Assembly (NCBI GenBank): GCA_947448885.1 | Contig: CANFPJ010000019.1 | Coordinates: 1-32,276, forward strand | Source: Comamonadaceae bacterium | GTDB taxonomy: Bacteria > Pseudomonadota > Gammaproteobacteria > Burkholderiales > Burkholderiaceae_C | DNA: 32,276 nucleotides | Direction: 5' to 3' | Shown here: positions 2,775 through 10,634 of the stretch, in pieces | How the letters are laid out: each line of letters opens with the position of its first letter | Numbering within the stretch: the first letter of the stretch is position 1 | The notes under the pieces: model-generated | Databases searched by the model: none | The model's input: the letters and a program-made list of their open reading frames with translations, nothing else | What the model was told of the DNA's origin: nothing | Translations under genes and position numbers: made by a program

Positions 2775-3788
2775 TTACTGGAAACCGATCAATATCGTGA
2801 TGCTGGTCGCCGCCGCACCAGGTGTGATGGTTGCCAGGGTTTTGGCGTACTGGACCTTAAAAGTTTTGCTGATGCTTTGCGATTGGGTTGGTGTGTTGAA
2901 ACCATAAACGGCACCGGTTATGGGGGTGTTGTGTCTGACAGCACTGCCGTCGGGGGCCAGCACCCGAAAGCCAAAACCCAGGTCATCTGTGGCAAGGGCG
3001 GTACGAGAAATAGAAATTGAATTTGCTGTAAGTGGTCTGGTGAATTGAAAAGTAGGTATGAGATTGGAGGCTATTGCCAAGGCATTGGGGGGACAGTTGA
3101 TTGAAAGATTGAATGTCTTTTCTCCTGCTGTGCTGAAGGTGCCAGCCGCGCCCGGAAGTTCCGTTGGTTTGATATTGCTCAGGATCAGATTTGAAGGGTC
3201 AATGGTGGTGCTGCAAGTGGGTGCTGTTGATACGGGAACTTTGACTTCTGGGTAATTGCCATTGGTCAAGTGAGTTAGTAAAACTTGTTTATCAGCGAAC
3301 GTGGTTAGTTTGGGGGTAAAAAAAGCAACATCTGTTGTTGTGGCGGTGCTTTTGCCTTCTAAAAAAAACACAACATCAAATTGAACTGTGACATTAGCAC
3401 AGCCCCTAGCCCCTATATTGTTGTAATTAAAAACTGTAGTTCCGCTCCCAGAAACACCACAGGATGCTCCAGGGTTGCTTCGGGCTATAAAAATTGTTTT
3501 ACCGAAGTCTACGGTCAAACCATTTTTGGTAATAACAGTAGGCCCACCTGCTCCATTAAATATCGGAACAGTTGGGGTGGGCAAGATAGAGCAACCTGCC
3601 TCCAATCCATTCAGCGTGATTGAGGTCCTCAGAACCACCTTGGTTACATTCCCTGTATTGCCCACGATAGAAATGGTTCCGCCGCCCCAGGAACTGTTGC
3701 ATATGGTTACCCCTTGTGAGTGGCTGAGGATGGGGAGCACGCTCAACAACATGAGTAATAAAAATTTGTAACCAAGTTTGTATGGCAT
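2775..3788 (-). CDS. Two-domain fimbrial tip adhesin (FimH-like organisation)
   Basis: The last gene of the chaperone-usher operon, starting 10 bases after the usher stop. The product has 337 residues, with a signal peptide (about 1-25, ending near SHSQG), an N-terminal domain with several cysteines (about 26-185) and a C-terminal pilin-like domain (about 190-337). The pilin domain starts CSTTIDPSNLILSNI, has a second cysteine in SINCPP, and ends in the strand SITILIGFQ, as expected for a subunit that completes its fold with a chaperone strand. Length and layout fit tip adhesins, which bind a host or surface receptor. The receptor cannot be predicted, because the N-terminal domain resembles no specific lectin I can name. 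The gene is visibly richer in A+T than the usher next to it. Confidence 0.8.
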   Translation of the reverse strand: MPYKLGYKFLLLMLLSVLPILSHSQGVTICNSSWGGGTISIVGNTGNVTKVVLRTSITLNGLEAGCSILPTPTVPIFNGAGGPTVITKNGLTVDFGKTIFIARSNPGASCGVSGSGTTVFNYNNIGARGCANVTVQFDVVFFLEGKSTATTTDVAFFTPKLTTFADKQVLLTHLTNGNYPEVKVPVSTAPTCSTTIDPSNLILSNIKPTELPGAAGTFSTAGEKTFNLSINCPPNALAIASNLIPTFQFTRPLTANSISISRTALATDDLGFGFRVLAPDGSAVRHNTPITGAVYGFNTPTQSQSISKTFKVQYAKTLATITPGAAATSITILIGFQ

Positions 3789-3798
3789 TTCTCAAATC

Positions 3799-6714
3799 CT
3801 ATTCGTTGGATTTAACAGTTTTAGACCCGGATTCACCTACATCACAACGCAGTTTCAAATTGGTAAATCCTGTGGCATTGGCCATTTGTTTCTCGTCCAA
3901 GGCATAAGCCAGCCAGCAGGTTTCTTCGGGTTTGTCGCCCCACACCACTTTCAGGCGGTCTTTGTTGGTTTGCACCCGCACCAAGGCACGGCTGCCTTGG
4001 CCCACGGTGCCCACCTCGTTGCCAGCGGCGTCGCTCACGGTGGCACCAATGGGCACCCGGGCGCCGCTGCTGGCTTGCAACACAATCAACAAAGGCCGCC
4101 CTGAGTTGGCGCTGAACTTCAGGCGCACGATAGACCCCTCCACCGGCGCCACTTTTTGGCTGGCGTTTTCCACCTCCAACTCGTTGGAGGCACCCTCTAG
4201 GCTGATTTGGACATCGTTCAGGTAATAAGGCGAGAGGTAAGGCACCACGCCATAGCCCCGGCTGTTGATGCGGGCTTGGCTGCCCAGCACCCCCGCGCCT
4301 TCGCCCTTGGGCACTTCGACAATGGCAAAGGTGTCGCCCAAGGTCGGCGCCAATATCAAGCCGCCGCCGTGCACCACCAAGCCGCCGCTGGCCGACATGC
4401 CCGATTGTTCGCTGCCGGTGTTGCTGGTGGAGTAGCTGGCGCTTGCATTGCCGTAAGCGTGTTGCCGGCTGATGGACGCGCTGGTGCTGCTGTTGGCGCC
4501 GGTTTGCGACTGGTTCAGGTTAAAGCCCACTTGGCTGTCCTGGTGAAATCCGTTGAACGACAGCGATTGGGTCGGCGTCATGCTGCCAAACTGGTTTTGG
4601 CTGGCGCGCACGCTGCCCCGCATGCTGCCCACACCCAGGGGGATGGAGGCCGACACGCTCGTGCTCTCCAGCGGTTTGCGCCCATCGGCGTAGGTGGTTT
4701 GGTCCACGCTGAAAAACAAACTCATGGCCCTGGTGTAAACGCTGTAAGACAAGCGGTATTGGTGGGTTTGGGTGTTGTCGGTCCAGGTGTTTTGCTCCAC
4801 CGCCCCCAAAGACACAGCGCCCCATTGGCCCAGGTTCAGGCCCAGGCTGACAAACAGGCTGTTTTTGGGGCTCAAGGGGTTGTAGGGGTCGGCGTTGCTG
4901 TTGGTCAAGGCGGTGATGGGCGACAAATAACCCAGGCTTTGCCCGCTGATGCCGGCATACACATTCACCGGGCCCAGCGCTGGTGCCACGTAGTTCACCG
5001 CGTAAGACTGGCCCGCGCTGGGCACGGCGCCCAGCCCTTGCGACTGCAAGCGGTTGAAGGCCACCGTGCCCCAGGCCTGGTTGAAGGCGGCTTGCAAGCC
5101 GATGTTGTTGTAGTTGGTGGTGGTCAGCCACTCCACGCCGGGCGTGGGCCAGCCGTCCAGACCGTAGCGCAAAAAGGCTTGCAGCACCGGTGTTTCGGTG
5201 ACGTTGCCGGCGTTGCGAAAGTTGCCCGTTGACAAGCTGTAGCGGTAAGAGCCGGGTTTGAGCTTGCCCGCGCTCAGGCTGTAGGGCACTAAAAAACTTT
5301 GCACCGTGCCGTCGGCTTCGGTGACTTGCACTTGCAAGTCGCCCACTGCCGCTGGGGGATTGAGGTCGGCAAATTCAAACGGGCCAGGGGGCACGGTTTG
5401 CTCAAAAAACACCGCGTTGTTTTGCAGCACCCGCACCCGCGCGTTGCTGCGGGCCACGCCGCGCACCACCGGGCGAAAGACGCGCTCGTCGTCGCCCATC
5501 AGGCCTTCTTCGGAGGACAGGCGCAACCCGCGCACCGGCACGCTGCCCACAATGGGGCTGGTGCTGACAATTTCGCCCAAGGCCAGGGTGGCGCGCCAGT
5601 CTATGAGGGGGCGGCGCACATAGGTTTCGCCCGCCACATATTGCTGAACGCTGCCCGCCCCCTCGGTGTTGCTGTGGCTGAGGTAGCTGGTGTGACGCAC
5701 CTGCCAGCCTTGCAAATTGATGCCCGAGTTCAGTCCCAAAAACGACGAACTCGATTGCGCGGCTTGAAAATAGTTGAAGTTGTAATTGGCGTAGCCCGCG
5801 TTTTCGCCGCGGGTGAGCAAGCCCGTTGGCACCGCGTTGAGCGCGCGCCGGCTCAAAAAGGCCTGCGGGATGGTCAGGCTCAGGCGCAGCTCGGAGGGGT
5901 CGTAATCCTCCAGCGCCCCAGCCACCCATTGGTCGATGTACAGGCAGGGCGATGGGGCGCTGGACTTGGCGTCGGCCTTGGTTTGGTTCAGTTGCACCCC
6001 AGCGGGGCTGATGTGCTCGGGTTTGACGCCAAGTTGCACAAACAGCTCGGGCGTGATGCAAGCGCGCGCGCCGCCGCCACCGGGCGGGGCGGTGAAGTTC
6101 ACCAGGGTTTTGGTCACCAAACTGTCGTTGCGATAAACGTCCACATCGAAGTTGCCCGGGCGCGCCCGGCCGAGTTGGTTCACCGCATTGCGGTCCAGGT
6201 TGCGAAAGGCTTTGCCGCGCAAAAAGTCGGTGTCGAATTCAAACTCGCCGTCATCGGCGGCGGGTTTGGGGGCCAGGGGCGGTGCTTGGGGCACGGGCAC
6301 CGGGGCCATCAGCTCGGGCCGTTGGCTGCTGAGCACTTGTTTTTGTTGCGGCAGCAGGGGCAGTTGTATCGCCCCATCGGCTTGCTGCGGGGTGCGCAGG
6401 CGCAGGCTGACCGGGCTGATGGGGTTGAAGGGGCGCAGGTCGTCGATCAAAAAGGGCCCCTCGCTGAGCCGTTGCTCAAAAAACACCAGCCCGTTTTGCG
6501 TCAACTCCACCACCTGGCCCTGAAAGGCCTGTCCTTGCAAGCGCAGCACCACCCCCGTGCTGGGTCCGGGTTGGTGGGTGCTGATCTCGACGCGGGCGCG
6601 CATGCCCAGGGGTTGGTTGTCCAGGCTGGTGTCGGCGGCCTGCGCCCACGGCGCGCTGCTGGCCAATGTCCACAGCGCACACCAAGCCCCGGCTGTTTTG
6701 GCAACAGACCCCAT
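3799..6714 (-). CDS. Fimbrial outer-membrane usher with extra N-terminal plug-like domain
   Basis: A FimD/PapC-type usher, the 24-strand outer-membrane pore that collects chaperone-subunit complexes and secretes the growing fimbria. From ATG 6714 (971 residues) the order is: signal peptide to about residue 26 (PWAQA/ADTS); an extra domain at about 54-128; a Pro-rich linker at about 134-154; the canonical periplasmic N-terminal domain starting FEFDTDFLRG and including GNFDVDVYRND; the beta-barrel; the plug domain at about 411-482 (VRVLQNNAVFFEQTVPPGPF); and C-terminal domains with a cysteine pair (EETCWLAY and LKLRC). The extra domain contains VELTQNGLVFFEQRLSEGPF and looks like a second plug copy. 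A TTG at 6726 is an alternative start in the same frame. The chaperone stop is 32 bases upstream; no strong Shine-Dalgarno is visible. Confidence 0.93.
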   Translation of the reverse strand: MGSVAKTAGAWCALWTLASSAPWAQAADTSLDNQPLGMRARVEISTHQPGPSTGVVLRLQGQAFQGQVVELTQNGLVFFEQRLSEGPFLIDDLRPFNPISPVSLRLRTPQQADGAIQLPLLPQQKQVLSSQRPELMAPVPVPQAPPLAPKPAADDGEFEFDTDFLRGKAFRNLDRNAVNQLGRARPGNFDVDVYRNDSLVTKTLVNFTAPPGGGGARACITPELFVQLGVKPEHISPAGVQLNQTKADAKSSAPSPCLYIDQWVAGALEDYDPSELRLSLTIPQAFLSRRALNAVPTGLLTRGENAGYANYNFNYFQAAQSSSSFLGLNSGINLQGWQVRHTSYLSHSNTEGAGSVQQYVAGETYVRRPLIDWRATLALGEIVSTSPIVGSVPVRGLRLSSEEGLMGDDERVFRPVVRGVARSNARVRVLQNNAVFFEQTVPPGPFEFADLNPPAAVGDLQVQVTEADGTVQSFLVPYSLSAGKLKPGSYRYSLSTGNFRNAGNVTETPVLQAFLRYGLDGWPTPGVEWLTTTNYNNIGLQAAFNQAWGTVAFNRLQSQGLGAVPSAGQSYAVNYVAPALGPVNVYAGISGQSLGYLSPITALTNSNADPYNPLSPKNSLFVSLGLNLGQWGAVSLGAVEQNTWTDNTQTHQYRLSYSVYTRAMSLFFSVDQTTYADGRKPLESTSVSASIPLGVGSMRGSVRASQNQFGSMTPTQSLSFNGFHQDSQVGFNLNQSQTGANSSTSASISRQHAYGNASASYSTSNTGSEQSGMSASGGLVVHGGGLILAPTLGDTFAIVEVPKGEGAGVLGSQARINSRGYGVVPYLSPYYLNDVQISLEGASNELEVENASQKVAPVEGSIVRLKFSANSGRPLLIVLQASSGARVPIGATVSDAAGNEVGTVGQGSRALVRVQTNKDRLKVVWGDKPEETCWLAYALDEKQMANATGFTNLKLRCDVGESGSKTVKSNE

Positions 6715-6746
6715 GGTGGTGGTCAAAACAGTGCAGTCGGGGGGGA

Positions 6747-7574
6747 TCAGGGGCCGGGGGTGAGGGCAAACTCAACCGGTATGGGGCCACCGTAGTCGCT
6801 GACAAACTCCACCTTGATTTGCTTATGGTCTGGGGTGAATTTGCCCACCTCGCCCAGCAGCACCGTGCCCTTGCCCATGGGGGGCAACATGCCGCCATCG
6901 AAAGTCGACGAAAAAGTACCGCCTTGGCCCAGGCTCACGTTGAAAAACGACATGTGGTATGGCGTGGGGTTGGTGCCCTCGGCGACCCAATTGCCGTCTT
7001 TTTGGGTGATCTTCCAGGTCGATTTGTTCATCATGTCGTTGGGGTCGCCGCGCAAAGCCTTGGGCCGGAAAAACACCTTGATGCGGGTGCGCACCGCAAA
7101 CACCAGCTTGTTTTCTTCGGCCGACTTTTGCGGCACCTCAAGCATGTTGAAGTAAAAAACGCTTTCACGGTCGACGGGCAAGGGCTCGCCGGTGTAGACC
7201 AAGCGCACCACCTGGGCACCGTCGGCGCGCAGACGGGCCACCGGTGGCGAGAGGTTGAAGGGCGTGACCGAGTCTTCGGGCGACGAGGCCGCGTTGCCGT
7301 CGTCAAGCCACATTTGCACAAAGGCGGGTTTGTCTTTGGACACATTGGTGATCCTGAACGTCACCTCACGCCGCGCTTCGGGGTAAATGACGCGGGTGGT
7401 GTCAATGATCATGTCGGCCTGAGCACCTGCCCAGGCCCACAGGCAGGGCAGCACCAACCAGGCCGGATGCAGGCGGCGCAAAGTGGCCAGCCAGCGCCGG
7501 GACGGCTGGGCGAGGGTGAGCAAGGCTTGGAGCAGGGCGCGGGTCAGGTTGGGGGTGAAGCTGGGGTACATCAT
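6747..7574 (-). CDS. Periplasmic fimbrial chaperone (PapD/FimC family)
   Basis: This periplasmic chaperone donates a strand to immature pilins and delivers them to the usher. The 275-residue product starts at ATG 7574, preceded by GAGAAG; a second ATG follows at once (7571). A long basic N-terminus and hydrophobic segment end near GAQADM, so the mature protein starts around residue 53. Family features are the early arginine in IDTTRVIYPEARREVTFRITN, the F1-strand signature VFYFNMLEVPQ, the conserved lysine in RTRIKVFFRPKAL, and a second domain with NPTPYHMSFFNVSLG and MLPPMGKG. The short F1-G1 connection (QKSAEENKL) puts it in the FGS class that assembles rigid fimbriae. The signal region is unusually long, about 50 residues. 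Confidence 0.93.
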   Translation of the reverse strand: MMYPSFTPNLTRALLQALLTLAQPSRRWLATLRRLHPAWLVLPCLWAWAGAQADMIIDTTRVIYPEARREVTFRITNVSKDKPAFVQMWLDDGNAASSPEDSVTPFNLSPPVARLRADGAQVVRLVYTGEPLPVDRESVFYFNMLEVPQKSAEENKLVFAVRTRIKVFFRPKALRGDPNDMMNKSTWKITQKDGNWVAEGTNPTPYHMSFFNVSLGQGGTFSSTFDGGMLPPMGKGTVLLGEVGKFTPDHKQIKVEFVSDYGGPIPVEFALTPGP

Positions 7575-7638
7575 GGTCTTCTCGGTGGTTGAAGTGGCCC
7601 GCCCCAACCAGAAGAACCGTTTCGCGCCTGCCAGGGGC

Positions 7639-8225: not shown

Positions 8226-8933
8226 TCATTGGTGGTTCATCACAAAGGGCAAGTAAACCGACACATTGCCAGCGGTCACGTCCAGCGAGCCGTCGTTGGC
8301 ATTGACCAGTCCGGTCCATTGCTGGGGCACATAGCGCGCCGCCACATAACGCACTCCCAGCGACAGACCCGCCGACGCTGGGCTGCCGGGGTTGTTCAAC
8401 ACTTGGTTCAGCCGCTGCGGTCGGTTCAGGTCCAGGGGGGTGAACATGCCCTCGGCGCTGATCAAGCCCACCTGCACCAACACGTTTTGCGCCGGTCGCA
8501 AGGTGGCGGTGTTGCGCAACAAGCCGCTCAGAGGCAGCACCGGTGCGGCGCCGCCATCGAAACTGAGTTGGGTGGGCATGCCAGCCCCCACACCCTGGCA
8601 GCCTGTGTTCTGGCCCATGGGGCTCAAGCGCAAGGGCACCGGTGCCACCGGGCTGAAAGCCGTGTTCAGCAACAGTGTGGTTTGCAACGCGGGCAAATTG
8701 AACACATAAGCCCCCAGGTTGTCGCCCGCCATCAAGGGCGAGGTGCAGGCGTTTTGGCGGATAGCGCCCACCACCGCCAGGTAGGCCGGAATGGAAGAGA
8801 CATCGATCTGCGCCCTGGCTGGTTGGCCCAACAGACAAGTCAGGGCAAATGCGGCCATGGTCAGGCGGCGCAGCATGCCTGCATGTGCTTGGGCGTTGGG
8901 GGGTGTCCAGCGAAAAACCGGCAAGCAAGCCAT
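8226..8933 (-). CDS. Fimbrial pilin-like minor subunit
   Basis: An exported protein with pilin-like features: signal segment LTMAAFALTCLLGQPARAQ, an early cysteine (RQNACTSPL), a second cysteine (NTGCQGVG), and many short hydrophobic strands. ATG at 8933 lies five bases after the stop of the preceding pilin, so translation may be coupled; ATG 8876 (MLRRLTMAAF) would give a more ordinary signal peptide and is a good alternative. Unlike its two upstream neighbours the protein ends SVYLPFVMNHQ, without the penultimate aromatic residue usual in pilins. It contains the segment RPAQNVLVQVGLISAEG and is most likely a minor or adaptor subunit of the same fimbria. Its assignment rests on context and composition more than on a recognised domain. 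Confidence 0.7.
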   Translation of the reverse strand: MACLPVFRWTPPNAQAHAGMLRRLTMAAFALTCLLGQPARAQIDVSSIPAYLAVVGAIRQNACTSPLMAGDNLGAYVFNLPALQTTLLLNTAFSPVAPVPLRLSPMGQNTGCQGVGAGMPTQLSFDGGAAPVLPLSGLLRNTATLRPAQNVLVQVGLISAEGMFTPLDLNRPQRLNQVLNNPGSPASAGLSLGVRYVAARYVPQQWTGLVNANDGSLDVTAGNVSVYLPFVMNHQ

Positions 8934-8938
8934 GCGGT

Positions 8939-9649
8939 TCAGCGCCACCACATGTTGACCACGATGGTGGCTGCATAAGCGCCTGCAGTCACCGTGTTGG
9001 ATGTTTTGGCAAATTGAGCCGTGAGGGCATATGTGCGCGCATTGCCCGTATTGGCCACGGCATCGGTGAGGTTGTTGTTGCCAGACAGCAAAACCCCAAA
9101 AGGGCCGCCCTTGGTCAAATTGAGGGGGGTGGTACCAACAAAATCGCCACTAAATTTGTTGATCAGGGCCGAGGTTGACTTGAGGGACAAAGCCACGCCG
9201 CCCACAGCGCCACTGTCGGCCGTGCCAGTGCTCAGCAGCAAGGTTTGGCTGCCAGTGTTCAAAATTTTGTCGGATGGCAAGGTCAATCCAACGTCAAAGG
9301 CCTGTCCACCCGAACAACTGAAATCAGCAGGGAGAGAAGCTGCAGACGACTTGGTGAAAAAGTAAACGGTTTTGGCCGGGCCAAAGGTGGCGCCCAGCGC
9401 AGCGGCCTGGGCCGTGGTCAAGGGCACCGTGCCCAATTTCATGGTCAGTGACGAATTGGCGTTGGCGATGGTGTTGCTGTCAAGGACGTTGCTCTCTGAC
9501 ATCACAAATTGACAAGTTGCCGATGTGATTTGTCCATTGAGTGTCAGCGACCCTTGGTCATTGTTTTGCGCAAAGGCCAGCCAAGGGCACAGCAGTGCCC
9601 ATCCAAGCCAACGGGCTCGGAGGGAAAAGGTGTGAAGTAACTGGATCAT
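8939..9649 (-). CDS. Fimbrial major-type pilin, second subunit
   Basis: A 236-residue pilin of the type 1 fimbrial class. The signal peptide ends near WLAFAQ; the donor strand and first strand follow (NDQGSLTLNGQITSATCQF), with the second cysteine in ADFSCSGGQAFDVGL. The C-terminus is TAGAYAATIVVNMWWR, the alternating hydrophobic strand used for chaperone recognition and donor-strand exchange. It shares its layout, including GATFG.AK/Q and the motif GVLLSGNNN / GVMLSGSTS, with the upstream pilin, so the two are probably paralogues. The ATG at 9649 follows a TTTTTT tract and has no Shine-Dalgarno sequence, suggesting low translation relative to the upstream pilin. Confidence 0.85.
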   Translation of the reverse strand: MIQLLHTFSLRARWLGWALLCPWLAFAQNNDQGSLTLNGQITSATCQFVMSESNVLDSNTIANANSSLTMKLGTVPLTTAQAAALGATFGPAKTVYFFTKSSAASLPADFSCSGGQAFDVGLTLPSDKILNTGSQTLLLSTGTADSGAVGGVALSLKSTSALINKFSGDFVGTTPLNLTKGGPFGVLLSGNNNLTDAVANTGNARTYALTAQFAKTSNTVTAGAYAATIVVNMWWR

Positions 9650-9728: not shown

Positions 9729-10406
9729 TTACTTGTACCAAACCGTCAAAGGCAGAGTGGCGGAAAACGCGCCGGCAGTCGGTGCCACGGTGGCGCTGGT
9801 GCGGGCAAATTGAGCCGTCACAGCGATGCTTTGCGCAGCCAAGGCCGCTGGCGCGCTGGTGCTGCCCGACAACATCACGCCATAGGGTGGGTTGACCAGG
9901 TTCAAGTTCAGGTTGTTGGCGCCCGTGGTCACGCCCGTTCCAAAGGAGCCTTTGAGCAAAACACCGACGTTGGAGGCAGCACCCGTGGCGGAAGTTCCAG
10001 AACTGAGCAATAAAACATTGCCGCCGGCGGTAACGGTTTGGTAGGTGCCGGGGGTCAAGCCAATGTCCCACAAGGTGTTGGCAGGGGTGCCGCCAAAGGT
10101 GCAGGTTGTGCCGTTGGCGTTGGTCACGGTGAACACCACGCTTTGAGCGGTGCCGAAAGTAGCGCCTGCAGCACCGGCGGCGGCGGGTGCTGCTGTGCTA
10201 CCGAGCTGAAGGGTTTTGACACCCGAGGCGGTGGCAGCGGTGTCGCCCATGTTCAGCACGCAGGTGGTGCTGGAAATTTGGCCGTTGATGTTGAGGGTGC
10301 CCGAGTCGTTGGCCGCTTGGGCCAATGAGTGCAGGTGCACGCCAAAGCCGGCGGCCAGGCAGGCGATGACGAGTTTGGATTTGTTGCGATTGAAAGTGGA
10401 AAGCAT
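9729..10406 (-). CDS. Fimbrial major pilin, first gene of the operon
   Basis: A 225-residue FimA-type structural subunit. ATG 10406 is preceded by AGGAG with 8-base spacing, the best ribosome site in the operon, which fits the most abundant product. The signal peptide ends near LAQA/AND; the mature protein begins SGTLNINGQISSTTCVLN with the first cysteine, and the second is in GTTCTFGG. The C-terminal strand is FSATLPLTVWYK, with the penultimate tyrosine typical of pilins. The protein is Ala/Gly/Thr-rich with few charges. It is promoter-proximal and followed by a strong stem-loop, both consistent with a major subunit. The frame could be extended upstream to 10478 but without a signal peptide at the new N-terminus. 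Confidence 0.9.
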   Translation of the reverse strand: MLSTFNRNKSKLVIACLAAGFGVHLHSLAQAANDSGTLNINGQISSTTCVLNMGDTAATASGVKTLQLGSTAAPAAAGAAGATFGTAQSVVFTVTNANGTTCTFGGTPANTLWDIGLTPGTYQTVTAGGNVLLLSSGTSATGAASNVGVLLKGSFGTGVTTGANNLNLNLVNPPYGVMLSGSTSAPAALAAQSIAVTAQFARTSATVAPTAGAFSATLPLTVWYK

Positions 10407-10634
10407 GTGAAAAGCTCCTGTGACAAATGAAGTTGAGGAATCCAACGAAATGAACCAAAGGACTACATTTCGCTGCATTTGAATGTTAAATGATTAGTTT
10501 TATTTTTCGCCACAGATGACAACTTTTTTCACTAAAAAATAACTCATTTTTTATTAATTTGTTGTTTTTTTGTTATTTTAGTACTCATAAATACGTGTTT
10601 TTACCGATATTCGGCCTGTCGCACAATAGGGCCC
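10407..10634. promoter_or_regulatory. AT-rich divergent regulatory region between the fimbrial operon and lgt
   Basis: This spacer is far richer in A+T than its surroundings, especially 10480-10600. It holds a perfect inverted repeat AAAAAAT-AACTC-ATTTTTT (10534-10552). On the minus strand TTGTCA (10522-10517) is a candidate -35 for the fimbrial operon, with AT-rich -10 candidates 14-17 bases further. Such regions are typical targets of nucleoid proteins such as H-NS/MvaT-type silencers and of fimbrial regulators. No recombinase gene is nearby and no long inverted repeats flank the promoter, so a switch of the fimS kind is not indicated. Confidence 0.5.
10600..10628 (+). promoter_or_regulatory. 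Putative lgt promoter with -10 next to the ATG
   Basis: TTTACC (10600-10605) and CACAAT (10622-10627) are spaced 16 bases apart. The -10-like hexamer ends 7 bases before the lgt ATG at 10635, so transcription would begin at or next to the start codon. There is no Shine-Dalgarno sequence (the preceding bases are AGGGCCC). Confidence 0.45.

Follow-up and report, generated by a model that had tools for sequence, protein, structure and literature searches.

The usher gene described here raises the questions of whether a domain lying ahead of its standard N-terminal domain (NTD) descends from the usher plug, and of what such a domain might do there. Ushers investigated to date have a single plug, which seals the pore and, once expelled, adjoins the NTD, and this makes it difficult to tell its two jobs apart; with a second plug copy split off by evolution, the periplasmic role could be tested in isolation. 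The gene lies in a 32,276-nucleotide stretch of DNA from a Comamonadaceae bacterium (assembly GCA_947448885.1, contig CANFPJ010000019.1, positions 1 to 32,276; hereafter the window), in which all of the features given below are on the reverse strand.

From its ATG at 6714, counted as residue 1, the usher gene occupies positions 3802-6714, and an in-frame TTG lies at 6726. Among six window proteins searched against Pfam, the usher matched PapC_N, the standard NTD (PF13954, 5770-6240, E 1.4e-28), the Usher barrel region including the plug (PF00577, 4114-5739, E 4.7e-104) and the C-terminal domain PapC_C (PF13953, 3892-4089, E 4.4e-15), in order and all above the Pfam cut-offs, and thus resembles FimD and PapC in having an NTD, a barrel with an internal plug and a C-terminal domain. 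The standard plug was located inside the barrel at 5251-5508 by an AlphaFold model and by the plug profile of this usher's group, which matches the plugs of FimD, Caf1A and PapC. The usher gene is adjoined by a periplasmic pilus chaperone gene (6747-7592, start provisional; PapD_N and PapD_C in Pfam), upstream of which three pilin-like subunit genes (8226-8951, 8939-9649 and 9729-10478) were assigned by position and length, with nothing in Pfam over the cut-off. Directly downstream of the usher, a 337-aa protein (2775-3788) with zero Pfam matches at E up to 1 is, from its position, a possible tip subunit. A chaperone was matched near the usher in 10/10 related loci, and at least one of the three pilin-like genes in all of these except L072.

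Between the apparent signal peptide (MGSVAKTAGAWCALWTLASSAPWAQA, 6637-6714, recognised by eye from the ATG start) and PapC_N there are 132 residues which, searched alone, fall below every Pfam cut-off, the Usher model giving a weak match (E 0.036). They hold a predicted plug-like beta-sandwich of eight strands (6322-6600, homologous core 6355-6540), followed by a linker (6241-6321). A wrong start codon or an assembly artefact was ruled out, as a single open frame spans the apparent signal peptide, the extra domain and the NTD in the window and in seven relatives (L064 to L070). The initial annotation had placed a second plug-like domain at 6331-6555, which does correspond to residues 54-128 when counted from the ATG at 6714. 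The motifs by which it had been aligned by eye to the plug are present as described, with VFFEQ, GPF and ADG in both segments and DL after GPF in both. The profile alignments are ungapped over 56 or 62 columns, and the local alignment has 3 gap columns. In this local alignment 24/64 residues were identical between the extra domain and the usher's own plug, and the score of 89 compared with 29.0 +/- 5.4 for 2000 shuffles (maximum 59); BLASTP of the extra domain against the remaining 813 residues of the usher gave an E value of 9e-7.

Profile comparisons extended this relationship beyond the window's usher. When 56 distinct plugs, located at 60 bits or more in ushers not belonging to the group, were combined in a profile, it matched the extra domain in 9/9 carriers (i-E 2.8e-5 to 0.097) and found nothing before the NTD in L072 or L073, two members of the group without the domain. 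HHalign probabilities were 96.4% with 38 plugs from outside the usher group and 96.5% with 9 from within it. Nine control regions of the operon (the NTD, a mid-barrel piece, two C-terminal domains, two chaperone domains and three pilins) gave at most 0.4%, with P 0.15 or higher, and as none of the 2000 shuffles reached the observed score, chance resemblance was ruled out. Searches of PDB sequences with the extra-domain profile returned 6 matches up to E 10, individually insignificant (best E 0.076), all of them ushers (five FimD, one PapC) and all within residues also matched by the group's plug profile. In the reverse search there were 26 further matches to the extra-domain profile in other genomes, of which 22 overlapped an usher plug and 4 were weak and unexplained. 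The Pfam Usher model matched 7/9 copies weakly (best E 0.018, below cut-off), and there was a weak KOW match in one. Judged by these sequence and profile comparisons, the extra domain is homologous to the plug of the same usher; since it precedes the NTD and does not interrupt the barrel sequence, where it could fill the pore, it counts as a homologue of the plug and not as the plug itself.

The predicted fold is consistent with plug likeness, not decisive for it. In AlphaFold models from 9-row alignments (pLDDT 77.5 for the extra domain and 80.2 for the plug), strands 2 to 7 of the extra domain start at residues 30, 42, 50, 60, 76 and 88 and the six strands of the plug at 15, 23, 32, 42, 58 and 69, such that the predicted six-stranded core of the sandwich agrees within 3 residues at an offset of 18, the same offset as in the HHalign alignments. 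The extra-domain model adds one strand before this core and one after it (13-21 and 99-105). Against the middle (plug) domain of Caf1A (PDB 3fcg), the extra-domain model was alike at a target-normalised TM of 0.63 and rmsd 2.7 over 62 columns, yet with 16% identity and a Foldseek E value of 0.12. Structure prediction, which had been proposed as a check, supported the earlier claim in the register of the six strands, and the Foldseek plug match was insignificant. Ushers made up 7 of the 50 matches listed for the extra-domain model (best E 0.053), an FNIII domain stood ahead of them at 0.043, and generic Ig-like folds scored as high as the Caf1A plug; for the model of the real plug, the best 20 matches were all ushers (E 1.1e-5 to 7e-3). 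By itself, Foldseek cannot set the modelled extra domain apart from generic Ig-like folds, and an unrelated Ig-like domain, alike by chance or by fold, could be proposed from the way in which usher matches are interspersed with FNIII and further Ig-like folds, none of which reached E 0.001 or better. This alternative is extremely improbable, as the sequence and profile evidence points to plugs and the outside-plug profile, HHalign and the operon controls bring it close to refutation.

The whole usher was matched in 20 of 84 genomes in a search of the genus, of which 12 carried this usher type, defined as 46% identity or more, and the remaining 8 only more distant ushers. Nine of the 12 had the extra domain, two lacked it (G016 and G095) and one was cut by a contig end (G002); the nine copies comprise eight in frame and one broken, the extra domain and NTD of G013 being in different frames. 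A scan of genome contigs gave 40 loci, 8 with the extra domain, and these lie on contigs which, judged by their length, the genus search had already covered. At locus L071, the NTD and extra domain are in different frames, and the usher frame of L072 (G095) is broken by a TAG stop, either of which may reflect decay or sequencing error. Each of the 8 carrier records bears the title of a metagenome bin, naming Comamonadaceae, Burkholderiales or Betaproteobacteria or, in two cases, Rickettsia and Bordetella, and two of the 8 have 'Lanier' in the contig name; judging from such contig names, the carrier group may be a freshwater one. L066, L067 and L076 are titled Rickettsia typhi, Bordetella parapertussis and Bacillus subtilis, and because their ushers group with Comamonadaceae bins or Lysobacter relatives, these titles look wrong or the assemblies mixed.

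Sampled searches, in which a capped number of candidates per genome was scored, revealed no further carrier among 399 order, 399 family and 369 class genomes, and there were zero relatives on viral contigs. Plasmid records gave 8 weak matches to the extra domain alone (E 0.1 to 1), of which the 4 annotated ones are all ushers. The profile search proposed earlier for other ushers with a plug, linker and NTD in this order yielded the 9 carriers within the genus and no plug-like domain before the NTD in 109 distinct outside ushers (best 4.2 bits, E 0.25), the layout not being found in other ushers examined. These 109, which include the Pseudomonas family sample, are the outside ushers with a locatable NTD, each counted once, with the window usher itself and any row in which the match to the NTD begins after profile position 15 set aside; some of the stretches start inside an open frame, and a few N-terminal parts are possibly cut. 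Two ushers have other material at this site, namely L008 (G031) of the same genus, at 32% identity, with a long Pro-Ala repeat and no domain before the NTD, and L101 (Comamonas kerstersii), with roughly 45 non-plug-like residues between the apparent signal peptide and the NTD.

In the published description (PMC8410936), FimD and PapC have five domains and none before the NTD, where the window usher has a plug homologue. The closest published layout seen is that of CupB3, a P-usher of Pseudomonas aeruginosa, which like the window usher has an extra N-terminal domain and is reported as essential for secretion of the TpsA-like CupB5 (PMC3031594). Compared by description, the extra domain of CupB3 is reported there as a POTRA, and a Pfam scan of the 9 copies returned no POTRA at E up to 1. 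The initial annotation had known of no well-studied usher with such a layout, which holds for a plug copy, no duplicated usher plug having been found in the full-text literature searched, which covers few subscription journals, and needs qualifying for extra N-terminal domains in general, for which CupB3 was the only published usher found in the literature searched.

A shared signature bears on the origin of the copy. Glu-Gln at plug positions 36-37 occurs in 9/9 copies, in 8/9 distinct group plugs and in 1/38 outside plugs, and the mean pairwise score is higher with group plugs than with outside plugs for 9/9 copies, the margin being below 2 points for 4 of them; 4/9 copies have their single best score with a plug from outside the group. 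The Glu-Gln signature and mean scores favour a plug of the group itself as the source, duplicated before the members of the group diverged. Derivation from a second usher gene in the genome is unsupported, a single usher having been found in the window's assembly (88% complete). In the usher tree, the group forms a 100/100 branch of 11 rows, in which L072, a 721-residue piece, branches first (96/91) and L073 is nested on a long branch (99/97), to which the long-branch warning applies. Presence or absence of the domain needs three changes on this tree, one of them solely because the cut-off L006 was scored as lacking the domain, and the simplest reading is one gain followed by loss in L073, with L072 either ancestral or a second loss. 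On this reading, an ancestor of the usher group would have duplicated its plug and placed the copy near the start of the same gene, after the signal peptide and ahead of the NTD, which would mean that usher architecture can grow through internal domain duplication.

The copies have since diverged more than the plugs, with 25-44% identity to the window's copy compared with 63-77% for the plugs to the window's plug, and dN/dS for three distant pairs with high dS of 0.33-0.45 for the extra domain compared with 0.09-0.23 for the plug. A possible explanation is that the duplicate folds and has been kept mainly for doing little harm, as a tolerated spacer with no specific partner, with which the faster evolution, the low identities and the absence of the domain in L072 and L073 are all consistent. 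This explanation is unlikely, given that near copies change few amino acids (synonymous and nonsynonymous differences are 12 and 2 for L065/L066, 7 and 1 for L066/L067, and 7 and 3 for L065/L067) and that nine residues are invariant across the 9 copies. On these substitution counts, which come from three closely related sequences, the extra domain is under purifying selection among near copies.

Conservation of plug features is selective. The plug-core residues G17, Q29, E36, Q37, G42, F44 and P75 are present in 9/9 copies, whereas of the residues typical of plugs E64 and G67 occur in 0/9 and D66 and the otherwise invariant D48 in 3/9 each; the Glu-Ala-Asp-Gly turn characteristic of plugs is lost, as is the Asn-Ala turn. 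The initial annotation had suggested that the extra domain could act as a gate, as a parking place for the real plug or as a further dock for chaperones. A second gate, in which the copy serves as a surrogate plug sealing the pore once the true plug has left, would accord with the homology and the predicted plug fold; it is disfavoured because several plug-typical residues are lost, and the two extra edge strands of the models and the well-conserved normal plug also argue against it, leaving this role improbable.

The reading preferred here, held at roughly even confidence, is that the plug copy has taken on a new role: located in the periplasm and attached to the NTD, it would aid the handling of chaperone-subunit complexes and would not seal the pore. 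According to PMC8410936, the PapC plug fills the resting pore and then moves beside the NTD, where a plug-NTD interface forms between plug residues P254, R256 and D297 and NTD residues Y128, D130 and W133, and the N-terminal tail of the NTD folds onto chaperone-subunit complexes as these are recruited; according to a review (PMC3960871), the plug of the Pap usher seems to assist in recruitment. In the window usher, the copy retains the predicted sandwich core with a further predicted strand on each side, has lost several plug-typical residues, and would fold in the periplasm, presumably under the pore, where its linker would connect it to the start of the NTD. Anchored to the NTD tail, such a plug homologue would be positioned for a recruitment job, and may dock there like a plug that stays outside the pore, assisting the NTD in capturing, retaining or choosing chaperone-subunit complexes. 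Its faster evolution than the plug and its absence in L072 and L073 count against a recruitment role. Plug-like docking is also unsupported at the residue level, because the Asp equivalent to D297 (position 48, inferred from the profile-match range) is found in 3/9 copies and P254 and R256 map, by inference, before the aligned core of the copies; any contact between copy and NTD probably differs, on these residues, from that of the real plug.

Two more specific arrangements can be derived from the PapC cycle. In the first, a tentative extension of the preferred reading, the permanently expelled copy would form the active-state platform of plug and NTD for recruitment while the real plug is still in the pore, and sealing and recruitment help would then be divided between two domains. 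In the second, which is doubtful, the copy would act as an autoinhibitory cap over the chaperone-binding face of the NTD in the idle usher, to be displaced by the first chaperone-adhesin complex. The tethering of the copy to the first NTD residues and the position of the plug beside the NTD in active PapC (PMC8410936) are compatible with such a cap; the presence of the interface Asp in only 3/9 copies is not what it would suggest, and the contact itself would be conjectural.

The linker through which the copy would be tethered varies among the carriers. It was described initially as Pro-rich, which is true of the window usher, where the 35 residues that precede the NTD include 8 Pro, and not of some relatives, as the seven other carriers counted have 0 to 6 (0 in L070). 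An R-P-E/D-L-L/M-A stretch follows the extra domain (window positions 6241-6321) in 6/9 copies, with a similar stretch in L064 and L069 and not in L070. A similar TELFALSPP stretch is still present in L073, which lacks the sandwich, and the linker motif may therefore outlive the extra domain.
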